A stretch of DNA of 64,000 bases, taken from Prolixibacter bellariivorans ATCC BAA-1284. GTDB lineage: Bacteria > Bacteroidota > Bacteroidia > Bacteroidales > Prolixibacteraceae. The notes beneath the pieces were generated by a model that had not been told where the DNA came from, made no database searches, and worked only from the letters and a program-made list of their open reading frames with translations. Made by a program: the position numbers and the translations under genes. Below, piece by piece: positions 18,590 through 25,733 of the stretch (within the stretch, counting starts at the first letter, position 1; every line of letters starts with the position of its first letter). Location of the stretch: NCBI RefSeq assembly GCF_000621705.1, contig NZ_JHXO01000001.1:434001-498000 (forward strand). The letters are read 5' to 3'.

Positions 18590-19378
18590 CTAATTTTCCT
18601 CCGGAAGACGAATAAAATCAACAAACTTTTTCACATTCTGCGAAATAGAACCTTCGTTCGAGAGGGCCTTGATGAAGGCACTTCCCACAATGGCTCCGTT
18701 ACTATAACGGCAAGAATTAACAAAAGTTGTGTTGTTGGAAATTCCAAATCCGATCAGGCGGGGATTCTTCAGGTTCATTTCCTGAATGCGTTTAAAGTAA
18801 GCCTCCTGATGTTGGGTTACGCTCGATTTGGCACCTGTAGTGGATGACGAGGAAACCATGTAGATAAATCCGTTCGAGAGTTCATCGATTTTCCGGATAC
18901 GTTCATCATGGGTTTGCGGTGTGATAAGGAAAATGTTCCGGAGGTTATTCTGCTCGAAGTAAGTCCGGTATTCGTGTTCGTAAACTTCCAGCGGCAAATC
19001 GGGTAAGATGATGCCATCAATGCCAATTTCATTTGCCTTCCGGCAGAATTCTTCAACGCCGTATTGAAGTACATTGTTGAAATAGCCCATCAGCACCAGT
19101 GGTAGTTTTACCTTCTGGCGAATATCTTTCAGTTGCCCGAATAGCAATTTCATCGACATGCCATTTTTCAATGCTTTGTCCGAGCTTTTCTGAATGGTTG
19201 GTCCGTCGGCAACCGGATCAGAAAACGGGATTCCTATTTCTATGAGATCGGCACCGCTTTTCTCCAGTTCAATAATTACTTCTTCTGTATCCTGAAGCTT
19301 GGGATAACCGGCCGTGAAATAAACCGATAATATGTTGTTTTGCTTCTCTTTAAAAAGCTGATTGATGCGATTTTCCAT
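18590..19378 (-). CDS. trpA: Tryptophan synthase alpha subunit
   Basis: A 262-residue TIM-barrel enzyme that splits indole-3-glycerol phosphate to indole and glyceraldehyde 3-phosphate, passing indole to TrpB. Diagnostic segments: YFTAGYPKLQDT, then DLIEIGIPFSDPVADGPTIQKSSDKAL with the catalytic Glu, LPDLPLEVYE with the catalytic Asp region, and the phosphate site IGFGISNN. Last gene of the trp operon, 28 nt after trpB. Confidence 0.96.
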   Translation of the reverse strand: MENRINQLFKEKQNNILSVYFTAGYPKLQDTEEVIIELEKSGADLIEIGIPFSDPVADGPTIQKSSDKALKNGMSMKLLFGQLKDIRQKVKLPLVLMGYFNNVLQYGVEEFCRKANEIGIDGIILPDLPLEVYEHEYRTYFEQNNLRNIFLITPQTHDERIRKIDELSNGFIYMVSSSSTTGAKSSVTQHQEAYFKRIQEMNLKNPRLIGFGISNNTTFVNSCRYSNGAIVGSAFIKALSNEGSISQNVKKFVDFIRLPEEN

Positions 19379-19406
19379 CTTGTTAATCTTTCGTTTCGAT
19401 GTTCAT

Positions 19407-20594
19407 CTATTGCTTGGCGTGAAAATGCTTCAGGTACGTTTCCATATCCTTGTCTCCACGGCCCGAAATGTTCACAACCACTACTTCGCCGGAAGTAAAT
19501 TTTAGTTTCTCCAATGCAGCTAGCGCATGCGCTGATTCCAGCGCCGGAATGATACCTTCTTTCTCTGTTAGGTTGTAAGCTGCTTCGAGTGTTTCTTCAT
19601 CGGTTACGCTCATAAATTGGGCACGGCCGGTTTCATACAGATTCGCATGCATTGGCCCTATGCCCGGGTAATCGAGTCCGGCAGAAATAGAATAGGGCTC
19701 AATTATCTGTCCGTCTTCTGTTTGCATTAGCAAACTCTTACTACCGTGAAGTACACCGGTTTTTCCAAGGGCAGTTGTTGCCGCTGATTCGCCGGTATCG
19801 ATACCTTTCCCGGCTGCTTCCACAGCAATTAGTTTCACCGCCTTATCATCCAGAAAATGATAGAACGCTCCGGCTGCATTACTCCCGCCACCAACACATG
19901 CAATAACAGCATTGGGTAACTCAAAGCCTGTCTTTTCTTTCAGTTGTTGCCGCATTTCCTGACTGATGATAGCTTGAAAGCGAGCCACCATATCGGGATA
20001 AGGATGCGGGCCAACCACCGAACCAATAATGTAGTGGGTGTCTTCCGGATGGTTAATCCAATCGCGAATGGCCTCGTTGGTTGCATCTTTCAATGTTTGG
20101 TTGCCGCTGTAAACCGGACGGACTTCTGCGCCAAGCATTTTCATCTTCTCTACGTTGGGTGCTTGCCGCGATACATCGAGGGCTCCCATATAAACAATGC
20201 ACTGCAATCCTTCGCGGGAGCAAACTGTCGCGGTGGCTACACCGTGCTGACCGGCTCCTGTTTCAGCGATGATGCGATGTTTCCCTAGTCGTTTTGCCAG
20301 TAAAATCTGACCAACGGTATTATTGATTTTGTGAGAACCGGTGTGGTTCAAATCTTCTCGCTTCAGGTAAATTTGTGCTCCGTATTGTTGTGACAAACGG
20401 TTGGAAAAATAAAGTGGTGAAGGTCTTCCGACGTAATCGCGGAGTAAATCGGTGTACTCCTTCCGGAATTCTTCGCTCTCAATAATTTCGAGATACCGGT
20501 TTCGGAGCTCATCCACATTCGGATACATCATTTCCGGGATAAATGCCCCGCCAAACCGTCCGTAATAGCCATTCTGATCTACATGATAACTCAT
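19407..20594 (-). CDS. trpB: Tryptophan synthase beta subunit
   Basis: A 395-residue PLP enzyme that joins indole and L-serine to L-tryptophan in the TrpA2B2 complex. K89 in HTGSHKINN is the PLP lysine; AETGAGQHGVATATV carries the substrate-carboxylate loop; CVGGGSNAAGAF binds the PLP phosphate. It is the standard TrpB1 type expected with an operonic trpA. It begins 26 nt after trpF. Confidence 0.97.
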   Translation of the reverse strand: MSYHVDQNGYYGRFGGAFIPEMMYPNVDELRNRYLEIIESEEFRKEYTDLLRDYVGRPSPLYFSNRLSQQYGAQIYLKREDLNHTGSHKINNTVGQILLAKRLGKHRIIAETGAGQHGVATATVCSREGLQCIVYMGALDVSRQAPNVEKMKMLGAEVRPVYSGNQTLKDATNEAIRDWINHPEDTHYIIGSVVGPHPYPDMVARFQAIISQEMRQQLKEKTGFELPNAVIACVGGGSNAAGAFYHFLDDKAVKLIAVEAAGKGIDTGESAATTALGKTGVLHGSKSLLMQTEDGQIIEPYSISAGLDYPGIGPMHANLYETGRAQFMSVTDEETLEAAYNLTEKEGIIPALESAHALAALEKLKFTSGEVVVVNISGRGDKDMETYLKHFHAKQ

Positions 20595-20620
20595 GATATC
20601 TGATTTATTTCTTGTGTTCG

Positions 20621-21283
20621 TTATAGATAATCGGAATAAGATCTTTTTGTTCCCGTATTGTTCTGGCGAATAGTCGCGATGAATCGTTTGAGCGCCTCGA
20701 TGTTTTTGAGCGCCGGTTCGGTTTCAAAACCACTGTTCACATCTACTCCGTAAAGTCTGGGATGTTGCAAGTTGCTTATGATTTCCGCATCGGTCGGACC
20801 AATACCGCCACTCAGGAAAAACGGTGTTTCGCCTGTGTATGCATCTAGTAATTCCCAGTTGAATTTCCGTCCGGTGCCGCCCAGCAGTTCGCCTTTGGTG
20901 TCGAACAGGAAGAAATCGCAGTTTCCGGTATATGGTGCTGTCTTCGTAAAATCAAAATCGTTGCCAACACTAAAAACCTTGATGACCGGAATTCCCAATT
21001 GCTTCAGGCGTGCGCTGTATTCGGGTAATTCATTGCCATGAAGCTGAACCAGTTCGAGTTTGTTGTTCCGGAACTGTTCCAGCAGCGATTCGAATGGCTC
21101 GTCCACAAAAACACCCACTTTTTGAATAAAAGTCGGGACCAGGTCAACCGCCTCGGGAGCAATTTGCTCGCCCACATACCGCTTCGATGTCGGGTAAAAT
21201 ATGAAACCAATATAGTCGGGGCCAAGCTCCACCAACTGACGGATATTCTCCGTCTCCCGCATCCCGCATACTTTAATTTTCAT
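20621..21283 (-). CDS. trpF: Phosphoribosylanthranilate isomerase
   Basis: A 220-residue TIM-barrel enzyme isomerising N-(5-phosphoribosyl)anthranilate to CdRP. Start set at 21283 (MKIKVCGMRE): the longer frame from 21313 adds non-family residues, and this ATG overlaps the trpC stop as ATGA, implying translational coupling. KVCGMRE holds the catalytic Cys; QLHGNE and SGGIGPTDAEI fit the family. Confidence 0.94.
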   Translation of the reverse strand: MKIKVCGMRETENIRQLVELGPDYIGFIFYPTSKRYVGEQIAPEAVDLVPTFIQKVGVFVDEPFESLLEQFRNNKLELVQLHGNELPEYSARLKQLGIPVIKVFSVGNDFDFTKTAPYTGNCDFFLFDTKGELLGGTGRKFNWELLDAYTGETPFFLSGGIGPTDAEIISNLQHPRLYGVDVNSGFETEPALKNIEALKRFIATIRQNNTGTKRSYSDYL

Positions 21284-22068
21284 CGTTTCAGTTGATTTAT
21301 GAATTCCCGGCAAGCTTCCGCCGGATGTTCCTGTTTCATGAAATTCTCGCCCATTAAAAAACCATGGAAACCGCTTTCGCGGAGATAATCCACCGTAGCC
21401 GGATCGCTGATGCCACTTTCGGCAACTTTTACCGCTTCTGCAGGAAGCTTCTCCAGCATCCGGATGGAATGTTCCAGGTCGACGGTGAAATCTTTCAGGT
21501 TTCGGTTGTTGATGCCAATCAAATCGACGCGCGGATCGACCTTCTGCAGTTCTTCTTCGGCGTGCAACTCAAGCAGTACTTCCAGTCCGAGTTTGTGAGC
21601 CAGTGTGGTAAAGTGCTCGATTTCTTCCTTTTCCAATACGGCAGCAATCAGCAGAATGACGTCGGCTTTTGTTACACAAGCTTCGTAAATCTGGTATTCA
21701 TCTACCATAAAATCCTTCCGCAACATCGGCGTATCCGGATTGGCTTCTCTTGCTTTCGCAAAGTCGTTCAGGCTTCCGCCGAAATAGGTTTTGTCTGTCA
21801 ACACCGAAATCCCGCTGGCTCCGGCTGCTGTATAACCTTCAGTGACAACCTCCGGCTCAACCTTATCGTTGATGATTCCTTTGGACGGGGACTTCCGCTT
21901 GAATTCGGCGATAATTCCGGAAGATTCCGGATTCCGTAGCTGTTCCTTTAGTGAGTTTCCTTTTCGGTTAGAGGGAATCTGTTTTTTCAGTTCCTCCAGC
22001 GAAACGTGTTTTTTCACCTCGGCAACTTCCTTTTTCCGGTTGGCTACTATTTTGTCCAGGATTGTCAT
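21280..22068 (-). CDS. trpC: Indole-3-glycerol phosphate synthase
   Basis: A 262-residue enzyme that closes CdRP to indole-3-glycerol phosphate. Start set at 22068 (MTILDKIVANRKKEV), which overlaps the trpD stop as ATGA; the frame from 22146 runs into trpD. Diagnostic: AEFKRKSPSKG with the catalytic lysine, ISVLTDKTYFGGS, LRKDFMVDEYQIYEA, LIGINNRNLKDF and VAESGI. Confidence 0.95.
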   Translation of the reverse strand: MTILDKIVANRKKEVAEVKKHVSLEELKKQIPSNRKGNSLKEQLRNPESSGIIAEFKRKSPSKGIINDKVEPEVVTEGYTAAGASGISVLTDKTYFGGSLNDFAKAREANPDTPMLRKDFMVDEYQIYEACVTKADVILLIAAVLEKEEIEHFTTLAHKLGLEVLLELHAEEELQKVDPRVDLIGINNRNLKDFTVDLEHSIRMLEKLPAEAVKVAESGISDPATVDYLRESGFHGFLMGENFMKQEHPAEACREFINQLKR

Positions 22069-23066
22069 TTCTGAATCTCCATCAGTTGGGTAAATACTTT
22101 CAATGCCTTTTTCCCGGCTAGCGACGAACGGGCTTCCTCGATGCATTGCTCAATACTTTTCTTCGGTTCGATGCAATGCAGGGCCATGGCTGAGTTGGCG
22201 ATGACAGCTGAGTTTTGTGCTTCTGTGCCGTTGCCGTTTAATACATCGGTGAATATTTTTGCCGTACCCGGAATATCTCCGGTGCTGGCCAGTTCGTCGG
22301 GGCTTACTTTTGGCAAACCGATGTCTGATGGACTCAACAGTCGGTCGACGTAATTAGTTTGCATCTTGAAATCACCGGTGAGTGAAATTTCATCGTATCC
22401 GTCGAGGCTGTGCAGAATGCAAAAGTTTTTGTCTGATTTTTGGTACAAATAACTGTACATGCGGCCCAGCTCCAGACTAAAAACGCCGACCATCTGGTTC
22501 TTCGGCTGACTGGGATTCACCATTGGGCCCAGCATGTTGAAGAAGGTTTTAAGTCGCAGTGCACGGCGTACCGGCGCTACATTTTTCATAGCCGGGTTGA
22601 ACAGTGGTGCGTGCAGGAAAGTGATGCCACAACTGTCGAGTTCTTTCCGTAACCGGTCGGCATCGTTGCTGAAGCGGTAGCCCAGGTGTTCCATCACATT
22701 GGAAGATCCACAGCTTGACGAAGCGCCGTAGTTACCGTGTTTGGCGACCTTGGCTCCGGCTCCTGCGACGACAAATGCCGAGAGGGTGGAAATATTGAAT
22801 GTATCTTTTCCATCTCCTCCGGTCCCACATAAGTCGATGGTTTCAAAATCGGAGAAGTCAACCGGGATACGAGTTTTCAAAAGTGCATCGCGAAAACCTT
22901 CCAGCTCTTCGATGCTGATGGTGCGCATATTGAATACCGTGATGAAAGCCGCAATTTCAGCATCGGTGTATTTCCCTTCCGTGATTTCCAGAAGAATGGC
23001 TTCTGCCTGTTCGCGGGTGAGTTTTTTATATTCGAATAGGTAATTGAGTATCTCTTTCATGATCAT
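22065..23066 (-). CDS. trpD: Anthranilate phosphoribosyltransferase
   Basis: A 333-residue enzyme transferring phosphoribosyl from PRPP to anthranilate. The PRPP site DLCGTGGDGKDTFNIST, KHGNYGASSSCGSSNVMEHLG and RTFFNMLGP-type helix (LKTFFNMLGPMVNP) are typical. It starts MIMKEIL; the second ATG at 23060 is equally possible. Its stop overlaps the trpC start. Confidence 0.95.
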   Translation of the reverse strand: MIMKEILNYLFEYKKLTREQAEAILLEITEGKYTDAEIAAFITVFNMRTISIEELEGFRDALLKTRIPVDFSDFETIDLCGTGGDGKDTFNISTLSAFVVAGAGAKVAKHGNYGASSSCGSSNVMEHLGYRFSNDADRLRKELDSCGITFLHAPLFNPAMKNVAPVRRALRLKTFFNMLGPMVNPSQPKNQMVGVFSLELGRMYSYLYQKSDKNFCILHSLDGYDEISLTGDFKMQTNYVDRLLSPSDIGLPKVSPDELASTGDIPGTAKIFTDVLNGNGTEAQNSAVIANSAMALHCIEPKKSIEQCIEEARSSLAGKKALKVFTQLMEIQK

Positions 23067-23090
23067 ATCTTTCTTTTTTCACGAATCGCA

Positions 23091-23657
23091 TTAATGATGA
23101 ATCCAGTTTTCCAGAATTTTCATTCCCATGGGTGTTAACACCGATTCGGGGTGGAACTGCACACCAACCATATCATAAGTCTTGTGCTGAAACGCCATGA
23201 TGCGGCCCAGTTCATCCTCGCATGTAATTTCCAATTCTTCAGGGAGGTTTTCTTTTTCCACTATCCATGAGTGGTATCTACCGGCATCGAAGTTTTCCGG
23301 GACACCGTTGAAAAGATAAGATGGCTTAATCTGGATAATTGGGGTAGACACACCGTGTAACACGTTGTCCATGTTTTTCAGCCTGGCTCCAAAACTTTCA
23401 GCAATGGCCTGATGTCCCAGACAGACTCCTAAGAAGGGTTTCTTTCCGGCATATGTTTTAATGATTTCAGGCATCAGACCAGCTTCTTCCGGAATTCCCG
23501 GGCCGGGAGAGAGGACGATTTTATCGTATTCATTCAACTCTGGCAGCTCAATTTCATCATTCCGCTTCACAATAACCGTTACGCCCTCAAATTTTCGAAG
23601 CGCGTGCACCAGGTTGTAGGTGAATGAATCGTAATTATCGATAACTAATATCTTCAT
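23091..23657 (-). CDS. trpG: Anthranilate synthase component II (glutamine amidotransferase)
   Basis: A 188-residue class I amidotransferase that releases ammonia from glutamine for TrpE. Triad: C79 in GVCLGHQAIAESFG, H169 and E171 in VQFHPESVLTP. PGPGIPEEAG is the oxyanion-side loop. It could also serve folate synthesis (PabA), as TrpG often does, but its position between trpE and trpD points to tryptophan. It lies 18 nt after trpE. Confidence 0.94.
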   Translation of the reverse strand: MKILVIDNYDSFTYNLVHALRKFEGVTVIVKRNDEIELPELNEYDKIVLSPGPGIPEEAGLMPEIIKTYAGKKPFLGVCLGHQAIAESFGARLKNMDNVLHGVSTPIIQIKPSYLFNGVPENFDAGRYHSWIVEKENLPEELEITCEDELGRIMAFQHKTYDMVGVQFHPESVLTPMGMKILENWIHH

Positions 23658-23675
23658 CTTCTGATTTTTTCGGGA

Positions 23676-25085
23676 TTATTGTATTTCACGGGCCAGCTGG
23701 ATAGCTTTCTTCAAGGCAGCCAGCTTATTACCTACTTCCTGCAACTCATTTTCTTCGTTCGATTCGGAGACAATACCTGCACCAGCCTGATAAAATAGAG
23801 TAGTATTTTTACTCAAAAAGGAGCGAATCATGATGGCGTGGTTAAAATGATTGTCGAAACCGATGTAGCCGATGCACCCACCGTAATAACCACGGTTCTG
23901 ATTTTCGTACTGGTCAATCAGTTCCATGGCACGGTATTTCGGTGCTCCGGATAACGTCCCGGCCGGGAAGGAGTCGCCATTCACCCTAAACGCGTTGCTG
24001 TTTTCGGGAAGATAGCCTGAAACCTTCGAAACGAGGTGAATGACATGCGAATAGTATTGAACTTCCCGGAATTGTTCTACTTCCACGTTTTCCGCATTGC
24101 GACTTAAATCGTTACGGGCGAGGTCTACTAACATCACGTGTTCGGCATTTTCTTTCGGGTCGGCTGCCAGTTTTTTGGCCAGTTTCCGATCCTGCTCATC
24201 ATCGCCAGTGCGCCGGAATGTGCCAGCAATGGGGTTGATGGAAACTTTCCGTTCTCGGATCTGCAACTGGGCTTCAGGAGAGGAGCCGAAGATTTTGTAA
24301 TCGCCGCAGTCGAAATAGAATAAGTAAGGCGATGGATTAATGTTCCGTAAGGCACGGTATACATTGAATTCATCACCGTGGAAAGGTTGGTTATATTGCC
24401 GTGAAAGAACAATCTGGAACACGTCGCCGCGATGGCAATGTTCTTTCCCGCGAGTAACCATTTTCTTGTATTCTTCGTCGGTGATGTTGGATGTTTCGTC
24501 ACCATGTGTTTCGAAAGTGAACGTGGCATAATTCCGGTTTGCCAGCAATCCTTCCAGTTCATCGAGCGATTCGTCTTCTCCTTCCGGAAGATTTTCAATT
24601 AGCTGTACGCGATTCATATGGTGATTGATGGCGATGATGTACCGGTAAAAAGAATACCGAATTTCCGGAATGGCGTATTCCGGTTTAACCGGATTTTTGA
24701 ATTTGATGGTCTCGAAATATTGAACTCCATCGTAACTGATATAGCCAAACAAACCGTTCGCAGGAATATTTGATAAACCGTTGGTGGGCTTAAACGATTG
24801 GAAAAAAGCATCCAGCTCGTCAGCTACCTGACCGTGTTTTTCCACAGGCCGGATTTCATCCTGGCGGTCGGGATATTTGATGCGGATGTTATTCTGTTCT
24901 ACCATAAAAGTTGCCTCCGGCTTGATGCAGATAAATGAATAACTGTTCTCATTGCCATGATAATCCGAACTCTCGAGCAATAGTGTGTTTGGGTAAATGT
25001 CGCGCAGCTTTAGGTAAATACTGACCGGTGTTACCGTGTCGGCAAGAATCTCTTTTACGCGTGGACTGAATTTGATGGTCTTCAT
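23676..25085 (-). CDS. trpE: Anthranilate synthase component I
   Basis: A 469-residue chorismate-using enzyme making anthranilate with TrpG. LLLESSDYHGNENSYSFI carries the LLESx motif linked to feedback inhibition by tryptophan. The chorismate site is visible in FQIVLSRQYN, YLFYFDCGDYKIFGSSPE, NPIAGTFRRTGDDEQD, DLARNDLSRN, FPAGTLSGAPKYRAMELID and YYGGCIGYIG. It is the first structural gene, 31 nt downstream of the second leader terminator, so its expression depends on read-through of that leader. Confidence 0.96.
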   Translation of the reverse strand: MKTIKFSPRVKEILADTVTPVSIYLKLRDIYPNTLLLESSDYHGNENSYSFICIKPEATFMVEQNNIRIKYPDRQDEIRPVEKHGQVADELDAFFQSFKPTNGLSNIPANGLFGYISYDGVQYFETIKFKNPVKPEYAIPEIRYSFYRYIIAINHHMNRVQLIENLPEGEDESLDELEGLLANRNYATFTFETHGDETSNITDEEYKKMVTRGKEHCHRGDVFQIVLSRQYNQPFHGDEFNVYRALRNINPSPYLFYFDCGDYKIFGSSPEAQLQIRERKVSINPIAGTFRRTGDDEQDRKLAKKLAADPKENAEHVMLVDLARNDLSRNAENVEVEQFREVQYYSHVIHLVSKVSGYLPENSNAFRVNGDSFPAGTLSGAPKYRAMELIDQYENQNRGYYGGCIGYIGFDNHFNHAIMIRSFLSKNTTLFYQAGAGIVSESNEENELQEVGNKLAALKKAIQLAREIQ

Positions 25086-25115: not shown

Positions 25116-25160
25116 TATAAAAAGAAAGCGGCTTACCGTGATTCGATAAGCCGCTTTCTT
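25116..25160 (-). terminator. trp leader terminator 2 (attenuator)
   Basis: On the minus strand a 14-bp perfect stem, AAGAAAGCGGCTTA with TAAGCCGCTTTCTT (arms 25147-25160 and 25122-25135), an 11-nt loop, then TTTTTATA. It stands just before trpE and after leader peptide 2, so it is best read as an attenuator rather than the end of a gene. Confidence 0.9.
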
Positions 25161-25190
25161 CTGCATTACTACATACCAAGCTCACTCTCT

Positions 25191-25256
25191 TCACGGTTGT
25201 AAAAAGTTGCGGTGCCACCACCAACGCCAGGTCATATTGTTTGTATGCAGATTCAT
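25191..25256 (-). CDS. trp leader peptide 2 (21 aa, Trp-Arg-Trp-Trp-Trp)
   Basis: A 21-codon frame starting ATG at 25256 and ending TGA at 25191. It contains MTWRWWWH: Trp codons at 10, 12, 13 and 14, four Trp in five codons, followed by NFLQP. Such density of a rare residue right before a terminator and trpE is the signature of a leader peptide sensing charged tRNA-Trp. An A-rich stretch precedes the start, as usual for Bacteroidota. Complementarity: ACCGTGA, overlapping the stop codon (plus strand 25191-25197), matches TCACGGT in the terminator 2 loop (25135-25141). CCGC...TTTTT (25201-25212) could pair with the 5' arm of terminator 2 (25151-25159). Confidence 0.85.
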   Translation of the reverse strand: MNLHTNNMTWRWWWHRNFLQP

Positions 25257-25275
25257 CGTTTTTGTTTTTTCTGAT

Positions 25276-25309
25276 AATAAAAAAGCTCACCTTGTCGAGA
25301 AGGTAAGCC
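25276..25309 (-). terminator. trp leader terminator 1 (attenuator)
   Basis: On the minus strand GGCTTACCTT (25300-25309) pairs with AAGGTGAGC (25285-25293), with one G-U pair and a 6-nt loop, followed by TTTTTTATT. It lies between leader peptide 1 and leader peptide 2. Confidence 0.88.
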
Positions 25310-25334
25310 GTCATATCTTAAAATTCAATATGGC

Positions 25335-25394
25335 TTAGCCTCTCAAAAAGAGGAAAGTGCCCCACCAAAGCCATATTGATTGATTCAATTTCAT
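25335..25394 (-). CDS. trpL: trp leader peptide 1 (19 aa, Trp-Leu-Trp-Trp)
   Basis: Translation is MKLNQSIWLWWGTFLFLRG, ATG at 25394 and TAA at 25335, with Trp codons 8, 10 and 11. The RNA around it shows the classical four-segment attenuator layout. Segment 1, CAATATGGCTT (25368-25378), overlaps the first Trp codon and pairs perfectly over 11 bp with segment 2, AAGCCATATTG (25326-25336), which overlaps the stop codon. Segment 2 can instead pair through TAAGCC with GGCTTA at the start of terminator 1 (segment 3). A ribosome stalled for lack of charged tRNA-Trp would cover segment 1 and free segment 2 to block the terminator. Confidence 0.88.
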   Translation of the reverse strand: MKLNQSIWLWWGTFLFLRG

Positions 25395-25499
25395 TTTCTT
25401 CACGTTTATGTGGTAAAGAAAAAATAAAAATTCCAGATTGGCAATATTTTTGAGTTAAAATAAATACAAAATTTCTAATTCCGACAATTAATGTAATTC

Positions 25500-25733
25500 T
25501 TAAGCTGATTTTCTGAGTCGGGCCAGAAAGCGTTCCACCATAGGAACTGTGGTTAATGTAGGTATCTTCTCGTCTTCTACCGTAACTCCAAACTCTTTTT
25601 CAAAGTAGTAGGTTAACAAACGATTATCCAACTCGTCAAGAAACAACTCTTCCTTGTTGTTGGCAATGAGTATTCGCTTTTTCTGCAGTCCTACGCGACG
25701 TAAAATTCTATACAGTTTAACTTTTGTTGTCAT
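25500..25733 (-). CDS. Small acyl-carrier-protein-like protein lacking the phosphopantetheine serine
   Basis: A 77-residue protein. Its second half, FLDELDNRLLTYYFEKEFGV followed by VEDEKIPTLTTVPMVERFLARL, resembles helices 2-4 of acyl carrier proteins (the DSL-x-x-x-E-x2-EEFG...I-TV-D pattern). At the position where carrier proteins have DSL, the modified serine, this reads DNR, so it should not carry a phosphopantetheine arm. The N-terminus is basic (MTTKVKLYRILRRVGLQKKR). It sits alone between the trp leader and an ABC-type operon. Function unknown; the ACP likeness is my reading and is uncertain. Confidence 0.6.
   Translation of the reverse strand: MTTKVKLYRILRRVGLQKKRILIANNKEELFLDELDNRLLTYYFEKEFGVTVEDEKIPTLTTVPMVERFLARLRKSA

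Follow-up and report, generated by a model that had tools for sequence, protein, structure and literature searches.

Two tryptophan leader units in series upstream of the trp operon of Prolixibacter bellariivorans and its relatives

Two leader units precede the trp operon

The DNA analysed here (the window) is a 64,000-nt stretch of the Prolixibacter bellariivorans genome. Its minus strand carries seven ORFs with Pfam matches to trpE, G, D, C, F, B and A, the gene order (trpEGDCFBA) given by the original prediction. The TrpE protein shares 95% identity with its counterpart in Prolixibacter denitrificans (L001), and further close matches bear the titles Mariniphaga or Prolixibacteraceae bacterium. 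Upstream of trpE are two Trp-codon leaders, each followed by a terminator, as listed below in the 5' to 3' direction of the minus strand.

25500-25733, 5' of the leader region on the minus strand: 77-aa ORF
25414-25444, minus strand: candidate Bacteroidota-type promoter (TTG at 25442-25444 and TTTCTTTA at 25414-25421)
25335-25394, minus strand: leader peptide 1, MKLNQSIWLWWGTFLFLRG, with Trp codons in the order W-L-W-W (3 Trp), from sequence reading
25279-25309, minus strand: terminator 1 (3:4), GGCTTACCTTCTCGACAAGGTGAGCT at 25284-25309 and a U-run to 25279; -12.6 kcal/mol, z -4.1
25191-25256, minus strand: leader peptide 2, MNLHTNNMTWRWWWHRNFLQP, with Trp codons in the order W-R-W-W-W (4 Trp), from sequence reading
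25119-25159, minus strand: terminator 2 (3:4), AGAAAGCGGCTTATCGAATCACGGTAAGCCGCTTTCT at 25123-25159 and a U-run to 25119; -25.4 kcal/mol, z -7.5
23676-25085, minus strand: trpE, first gene of the operon, 3' of both leaders
18590-25085, minus strand: trpE-G-D-C-F-B-A operon (Pfam matches of seven ORFs), the putative target of control

Two complete units in series had been proposed, and both can be read directly from the sequence, unit 1 at 25279-25394 and unit 2 at 25119-25256. Together the leaders hold seven Trp codons in 40 sense codons, in line with the earlier estimate of about 40, and terminator 2 is the stronger of the two terminators, as anticipated (-25.4 versus -12.6 kcal/mol). The label "ACP-like" for the 77-aa ORF proved baseless, with no Pfam match even at E 10. 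A scan for a peptide plus a terminator in the 600 nt upstream of trpE gave two units in the real sequence and none in any of 1,000 dinucleotide shuffles, which rules out a chance origin of the units. A simple consensus terminator scan listed terminator 1, together with two short hairpins within leader 2, and missed terminator 2, probably because the stem of the latter runs into its U-run.

Leader 1 is three codons longer before its stop in the window than in three congeners (L047-L049). Relative to L048 and L049 the difference amounts to one extra T within 25335-25350, which shifts the leader-1 stop so that the peptide ends three codons later. The units are also joined by weak direct repeats, one of 77% identity over 22 nt (25177-25198 in unit 2 versus 25386-25407 at the start of unit 1) and one of 92% over 12 nt (25218-25229 in unit 2 versus 25362-25373 in unit 1), which are either a trace of duplication or chance. 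The candidate promoter was picked by its likeness to the Bacteroidota consensus. On inspection by eye of an alignment of 16 representatives, most share its TTG and its T-rich box resembling TTTG, and one recurrent promoter-like block was seen, upstream of leader 1. E. coli has a Trp repressor; no member of the Trp-repressor family, the repressor family covered by our search, was found among 31 genomes, so trp control here may rest on attenuation alone.

Alternative RNA pairings in both units

Three further pairings in the window would allow each leader RNA to switch between structures.

25326-25378, minus strand: unit-1 protector hairpin (1:2), arms CAATATGGCTT (25368-25378) and AAGCCATATTG (25326-25336)
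25295-25346, minus strand: unit-1 antiterminator (2:3), TTGAGAGGCTAAGCC (25332-25346) with GGCTTACCTTCTCGA (25295-25309), from fold and duplexes
25135-25197, minus strand: unit-2 antiterminator (2:3), ACCGTGA (25191-25197) with TCACGGT (25135-25141) and TGAGC (25180-25184) with GCTTA (25147-25151)

The unit-1 protector encloses the Trp codons of leader 1, is the highly conserved hairpin discussed below, and folds in the window at -19.6 kcal/mol (z -3.1). Across 59 sequences its stem (AATACAATATGGCT with AGCCATATTG(G)TATT) is paired in 97.2% of cells, and 7 of the 14 aligned pairs show a two-sided change in one or more sequences (mean of shuffles 2.4); neither this number nor the 38 two-sided cells was equalled in 500 shuffles. 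As 32 of those 38 cells fall at two adjacent pairs, mainly as one difference between g1/g10 and the rest, they represent few independent events. The unit-1 antiterminator has a fold energy of -17.7 kcal/mol over 25284-25346 (z -3.1). It was scored in relatives by per-sequence duplexes because its alignment was off register, and these have a median of -14.5 kcal/mol, 31 of 59 lying below p 0.05 against shuffles and 28 above. In the 45 sequences whose terminator is of the CCTGCT type, three core positions of this antiterminator are always paired, two of them by several pair types; this count is biased towards pairing since the duplex program picked the pairs.

For unit 2, the ACCGTGA strand of the antiterminator holds the leader-2 stop codon in the window genome, and its TCACGGT partner falls in the terminator-2 loop and the upper part of the 3' arm. 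The duplex reaches -18.3 kcal/mol in L046. Duplexes taken from the alignment columns of 69 sequences have a median of -15.0 kcal/mol (46 below p 0.05, 23 not), and 94.4% of cells are paired. The 10 two-sided cells exceed all 500 shuffles, and they fall in two pairs, a number of pairs that 13 of the 500 shuffles reach. The clearest case of covariation is L095, in which the stop is TAA for TGA and the partner letter is altered to match. Terminator 2 is paired in 99.4% of 965 cells from the same number of sequences (69), with two-sided changes in 5 of 14 pairs and in 53 cells (0 of 500 shuffles as high for the cells). The putative unit-2 protector is a small hairpin right after the Trp codons, paired in 97.1% of cells; covariation beyond shuffles was not found for it (one pair, with 356 of 500 shuffles as high). 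The antiterminator clearly excludes the terminator in unit 1. In unit 2 the exclusion has weaker support; the antiterminator pairing there is split in two and takes in the stop codon.

The sequences show both leaders, both terminators, and alternative pairings that are conserved and marked by two-sided base changes. The expectation that Trp codons would be kept and stems compensated in relatives held for the Trp codons of both leaders and for most stems, and failed for the unit-2 protector.

We folded ten unit-1 and ten unit-2 leaders under different ribosome states. With no ribosome, 9 of 10 unit-1 leaders formed the protector (L070 gave the antiterminator instead); a stalled ribosome with a half-made terminator gave the antiterminator in 10 of 10, and a ribosome at the stop codon gave the terminator in 10 of 10. 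In full-length folds with a stalled ribosome, the terminator was still favoured in 6 of 10 unit-1 and 10 of 10 unit-2 leaders, so antitermination in these cases must win kinetically; the window's own unit 1 keeps its antiterminator in this fold.

Conservation within the family

A genome search covered 140 genomes of the family (f1), and 127 of them gave a TrpE match with an E value no higher than 1e-100. Our main counts come from 100 trpE upstream regions, to which 20 further regions were added later. Under a strict rule (at least three Trp in six codons, each peptide with its own terminator), 47 of the 100 regions hold two complete units, and another 6 hold two peptides with only one scored terminator. 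A looser rule (two Trp in five codons), applied to the 98 family regions of at least 400 nt, gave two units in 55 and at least one in 88, with none in 980 shuffles. Leader 1 reads IWLWWG in Prolixibacter and in the majority of g10, and most of the remaining genomes have IWLPWWG. Its Trp ORF is ATG-led in 62 of the 100 regions; leader 2 keeps a Trp run, mostly WRWWW, WRW or WWW.

An RNA model of unit 1 matched 106 of the 140 family genomes at E 0.01 (104 at 1e-4 or better). Among 393 genomes of the order it matched 21 at E 0.01, and below 1e-4 family members only. Of 295 genomes sampled from the class, the window's own was the only one to contain the exact hairpin pattern.

Several regions depart from the common layout. 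L119 and L123 (g23) have a unit-1-type leader and terminator but nothing that scored as unit 2, and may carry unit 1 alone. In L126 (g13), read by eye, a frame from an ATG within the hairpin continues into the leader-2 Trp run (MANSWWDPSKEG...NIWWW), so that the units look fused into one frame. L106 has extra sequence between leader 2 and trpE, including a palindromic stretch, and unit 1 lies more than 900 nt upstream of trpE in G045 and G132; insertions are possibly behind the extra sequence in these three.

A conserved hairpin in unit 1

The unit-1 motif is present in 78 of the 100 family regions, of which 57 have both ORF 1 and terminator 1, five the ORF only, none the terminator only and 16 neither. 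The ORF-only regions carry a weaker terminator that falls under the threshold and is visible in the alignment as a short stem with a long loop. ORF and terminator are associated at p 1e-12 (Fisher's test, with relatedness ignored). Among the 20 later regions, 17 have both, none has either alone and one has neither, the remaining two being without the motif (one of them ended by the contig end). On a TrpE tree, in which L143, L126 and L112 form long branches and the root serves for drawing only, the state with neither ORF nor terminator needs three changes and therefore reflects few events.

Six genomes with the hairpin only are 94-100% identical over its 33-nt and 17-nt strands, versus 33-49% at fourfold-degenerate trpE sites. 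UGGUGGG is invariant in all 16 hairpin-only regions, and the inner stem forms in 16 of 16 folds despite differing letters. These sequence comparisons suggest an RNA-level role, and since the hairpin is kept where ORF and terminator are missing, that role seems to depend neither on translation of the Trp frame from an ATG nor on terminator 1. Its conservation goes beyond what attenuation needs, and unit 1 is not simply one more classical attenuator.

The 16 of 78 motif regions that keep the hairpin without an ATG-led Trp frame or terminator 1, and the near-identity of its strands in six of these genomes, would also fit an alternative in which only unit 2 works as a Trp attenuator. Unit 1 would then be a structured RNA element (a sensor, protein site or pause hairpin), its UGG triplets being Trp codons by chance and terminator 1 its expression platform. 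L126 and L128 (g9) likewise keep the UGGUGGG letters outside the Trp frame. We nevertheless judge this alternative unlikely: the Trp frame is ATG-led in 57 of 57 regions with terminator 1 (17 of 17 in the later set), and L113, L119, L122 and L123, all of g23, keep Trp codons, ORF and terminator although the motif is altered. L261, also of g23, retains the RNA motif of unit 1.

An inverted repeat of this kind could also be a DNA operator for a repressor, and its half sites (CAATATGGC and GCCATATT(G)) are almost invariant. However, half-site spacing is variable, the inner stem changes yet stays paired, the outer stem has two-sided changes, and the 31 genomes searched held no member of the Trp-repressor family; an operator is thus very improbable. 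Unit 1 might instead be a duplicate in decay that has been inherited and contributes little to regulation. The weak repeats that link the units in the window genome would agree with this and, if the ancestor was tandem (a candidate direction of the three changes), the terminator and start codon of unit 1 disappeared on more than one occasion. Yet the Trp codons, stems and terminator 1 survive divergence that has scrambled fourfold sites, and double leaders are present in three other families, which makes decay highly unlikely.

A bolder and rather improbable reading is that the hairpin represents a novel RNA of this family with a sensory or protein-binding role, which is also a Trp-codon leader in the tandem genomes. 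Its candidate parts would be the outer stem (CAAUAUGGC/GCCAUAUU), the invariant UGGUGGG on the 5' strand of an internal loop, and the variable, paired inner stem. If so, it would work without an ATG-led Trp frame or terminator in 17 hairpin-only genomes (16 plus 1 from the later regions), and a direct sensor and a ribosome-mediated attenuator would be combined on one RNA. A conserved arrest peptide in leader 1 fits less well than RNA-level constraint, because bases at synonymous positions are conserved too and persist where the frame has no ATG start. Where the ATG is missing, the leader-1 frame may use non-ATG starts.

The UGGUGGGG loop was considered as a candidate site of pairing with tRNA-Trp. 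A consensus scan of one hairpin-only genome (L078) found no terminator formed by the hairpin itself. The unit-1 model gave weak extra matches in G087 and G117, as well as upstream of an ilvD-like gene in G081, G084, G090 and G139 and of a cysK-like gene in G102. Given the genes that they precede, the matches in the latter five were rejected as second unit-1 copies.

Tandem leaders beyond the family

The survey was extended to 111 trpE upstream regions beyond the family sample. Of these, 86 carry one or more Trp leaders with a terminator under the looser rule and 77 under the stricter, with none in 1,110 shuffles, implying that a single leader is a general pattern of the class. Double units were flagged in 4 of 111 by the looser rule and 2 by the stricter. 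Those accepted were L163 (f7), L183 (f57) and L236 (f80, with two Trp per leader); L171, flagged as double by the scanner, was dropped, as it rested on a short AWW peptide in the upstream sequence. The tandem arrangement described in the original prediction is present in the window without being peculiar to it: much of the family shows it as its usual layout, and a few other families have it too. Tandem leaders likely had a repeated origin, the tree being one of family f1 only.

Other leaders were noticed in passing. In L150 (family f63) a trpB-like gene is preceded, at about 1490-1720, by two Trp-rich frames of which the first has a terminator, a possible further tandem case. Leu-, Val- and Ile-rich leaders with terminators (for example MKNLNLYSLLLVVILILVDNG in L154, read by eye) occur in L154, L155, L156 and L157 (three of g10, one of g23), before what we take from sequence to be an ilvD-like and then an ilvB-like gene, and are probable branched-chain attenuators. 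On the reverse complement of L158, at about 265-365, the frame ATG TGT TGT TGG TTC CTT TGT TAG lies in a unit-1-like hairpin with a terminator, before a cysK-like gene; it is possibly a cysteine-codon attenuator.

Two probable attenuators in series

Taken together, these features very probably represent two ribosome-mediated transcription attenuators that follow one another on a single trp leader transcript. When charged tRNA-Trp is scarce, a ribosome on either leader would stall at the Trp codons and open the protector hairpin of that unit, so that region 2 could pair with region 3 and block the terminator. A ribosome at the stop codon would instead mask region 2 and let the terminator form. 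Transcription would reach trpE only when terminators 1 and 2 both fail. For independent units, read-through would be the product of the two, basal expression would drop multiplicatively and logarithmic sensitivities would add. Repression factors would in this way be multiplied and the response sharpened, as originally proposed. We infer the stalling, the coupling, the single transcript, the independence of the units and the size of the effect. The framework for sensitivity is that of PMC1183508, the sections of which used here contain no terms for tandem units.

If both units act in this way, attenuators in series that answer to the same signal would provide a naturally occurring system in which to examine how dynamic range and sensitivity are set. 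Textbook attenuation has one sensor and one switch. Genomes with one unit, with two units, and with the hairpin but neither ORF nor terminator offer ready-made natural variants, and the conserved unit-1 hairpin poses a concrete, testable puzzle.

Comparison with known systems

The closest described element is the Bacteroidete tryptophan peptide leader RNA (RF01692, Bacteroid-trp), listed in a table of Weinberg et al. 2010 (PMC2864571). It resembles the present units in being a Trp-run leader in Bacteroidota; however, it describes one leader whereas the window has two. Within family f1 it marks the single leaders that directly precede trpE in G035 (g4), G036 (g5), and G117 and G121 (g19). Its gathering cut-off was passed by 14 of 140 family genomes, the window's not among them; the window had no match to it at gathering, and a listing up to E 10 gave 18 chance-level matches, none of them to this element. 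Unit 1 of L072 reached 35.8 bits where the cut-off is 49. A flavobacterium has been reported to show strong signs of attenuation by leader peptides ahead of amino-acid operons (PMC9723704), and classical trp attenuators have been described in actinobacteria (PMC1262725). A literature search, mostly of open-access text, returned no recognised report of two ribosome attenuators for the same amino acid in series. The single Trp leader was already known, and judging by that search the tandem form appears to be new.

The E. coli trpL attenuator (RF00513, Trp_leader) has a leader peptide, as the window units do, and the 1:2, 2:3 and 3:4 scheme proposed for them. It has one unit with two adjacent Trp codons (PMC3641672), in contrast to the two units with three and four Trp codons found here. 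Two attenuators are also described in the leader of Salmonella mgtCBR, termed a "singular example" where a single attenuator is normal (PMC3641672). Its two signals are ATP and proline, whereas here both leaders carry Trp codons, and by the account in that source it lacks the two sites of termination that a tandem riboswitch leader has (PMC3641672), while here each leader has its own terminator. Both systems have two leader ORFs on one leader mRNA, if the window units share a transcript as we propose.

No T-box or other Rfam leader matched at gathering score in the whole 64,000-nt window. T-boxes and riboswitches bind tRNA or a small ligand directly, whereas here ribosomes on the leader peptides would be the sensors. 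Tandem T-boxes and riboswitches resemble the present arrangement in placing two sensors of one signal in series, and double T-boxes have been suggested to sharpen the response (PMC9413887).
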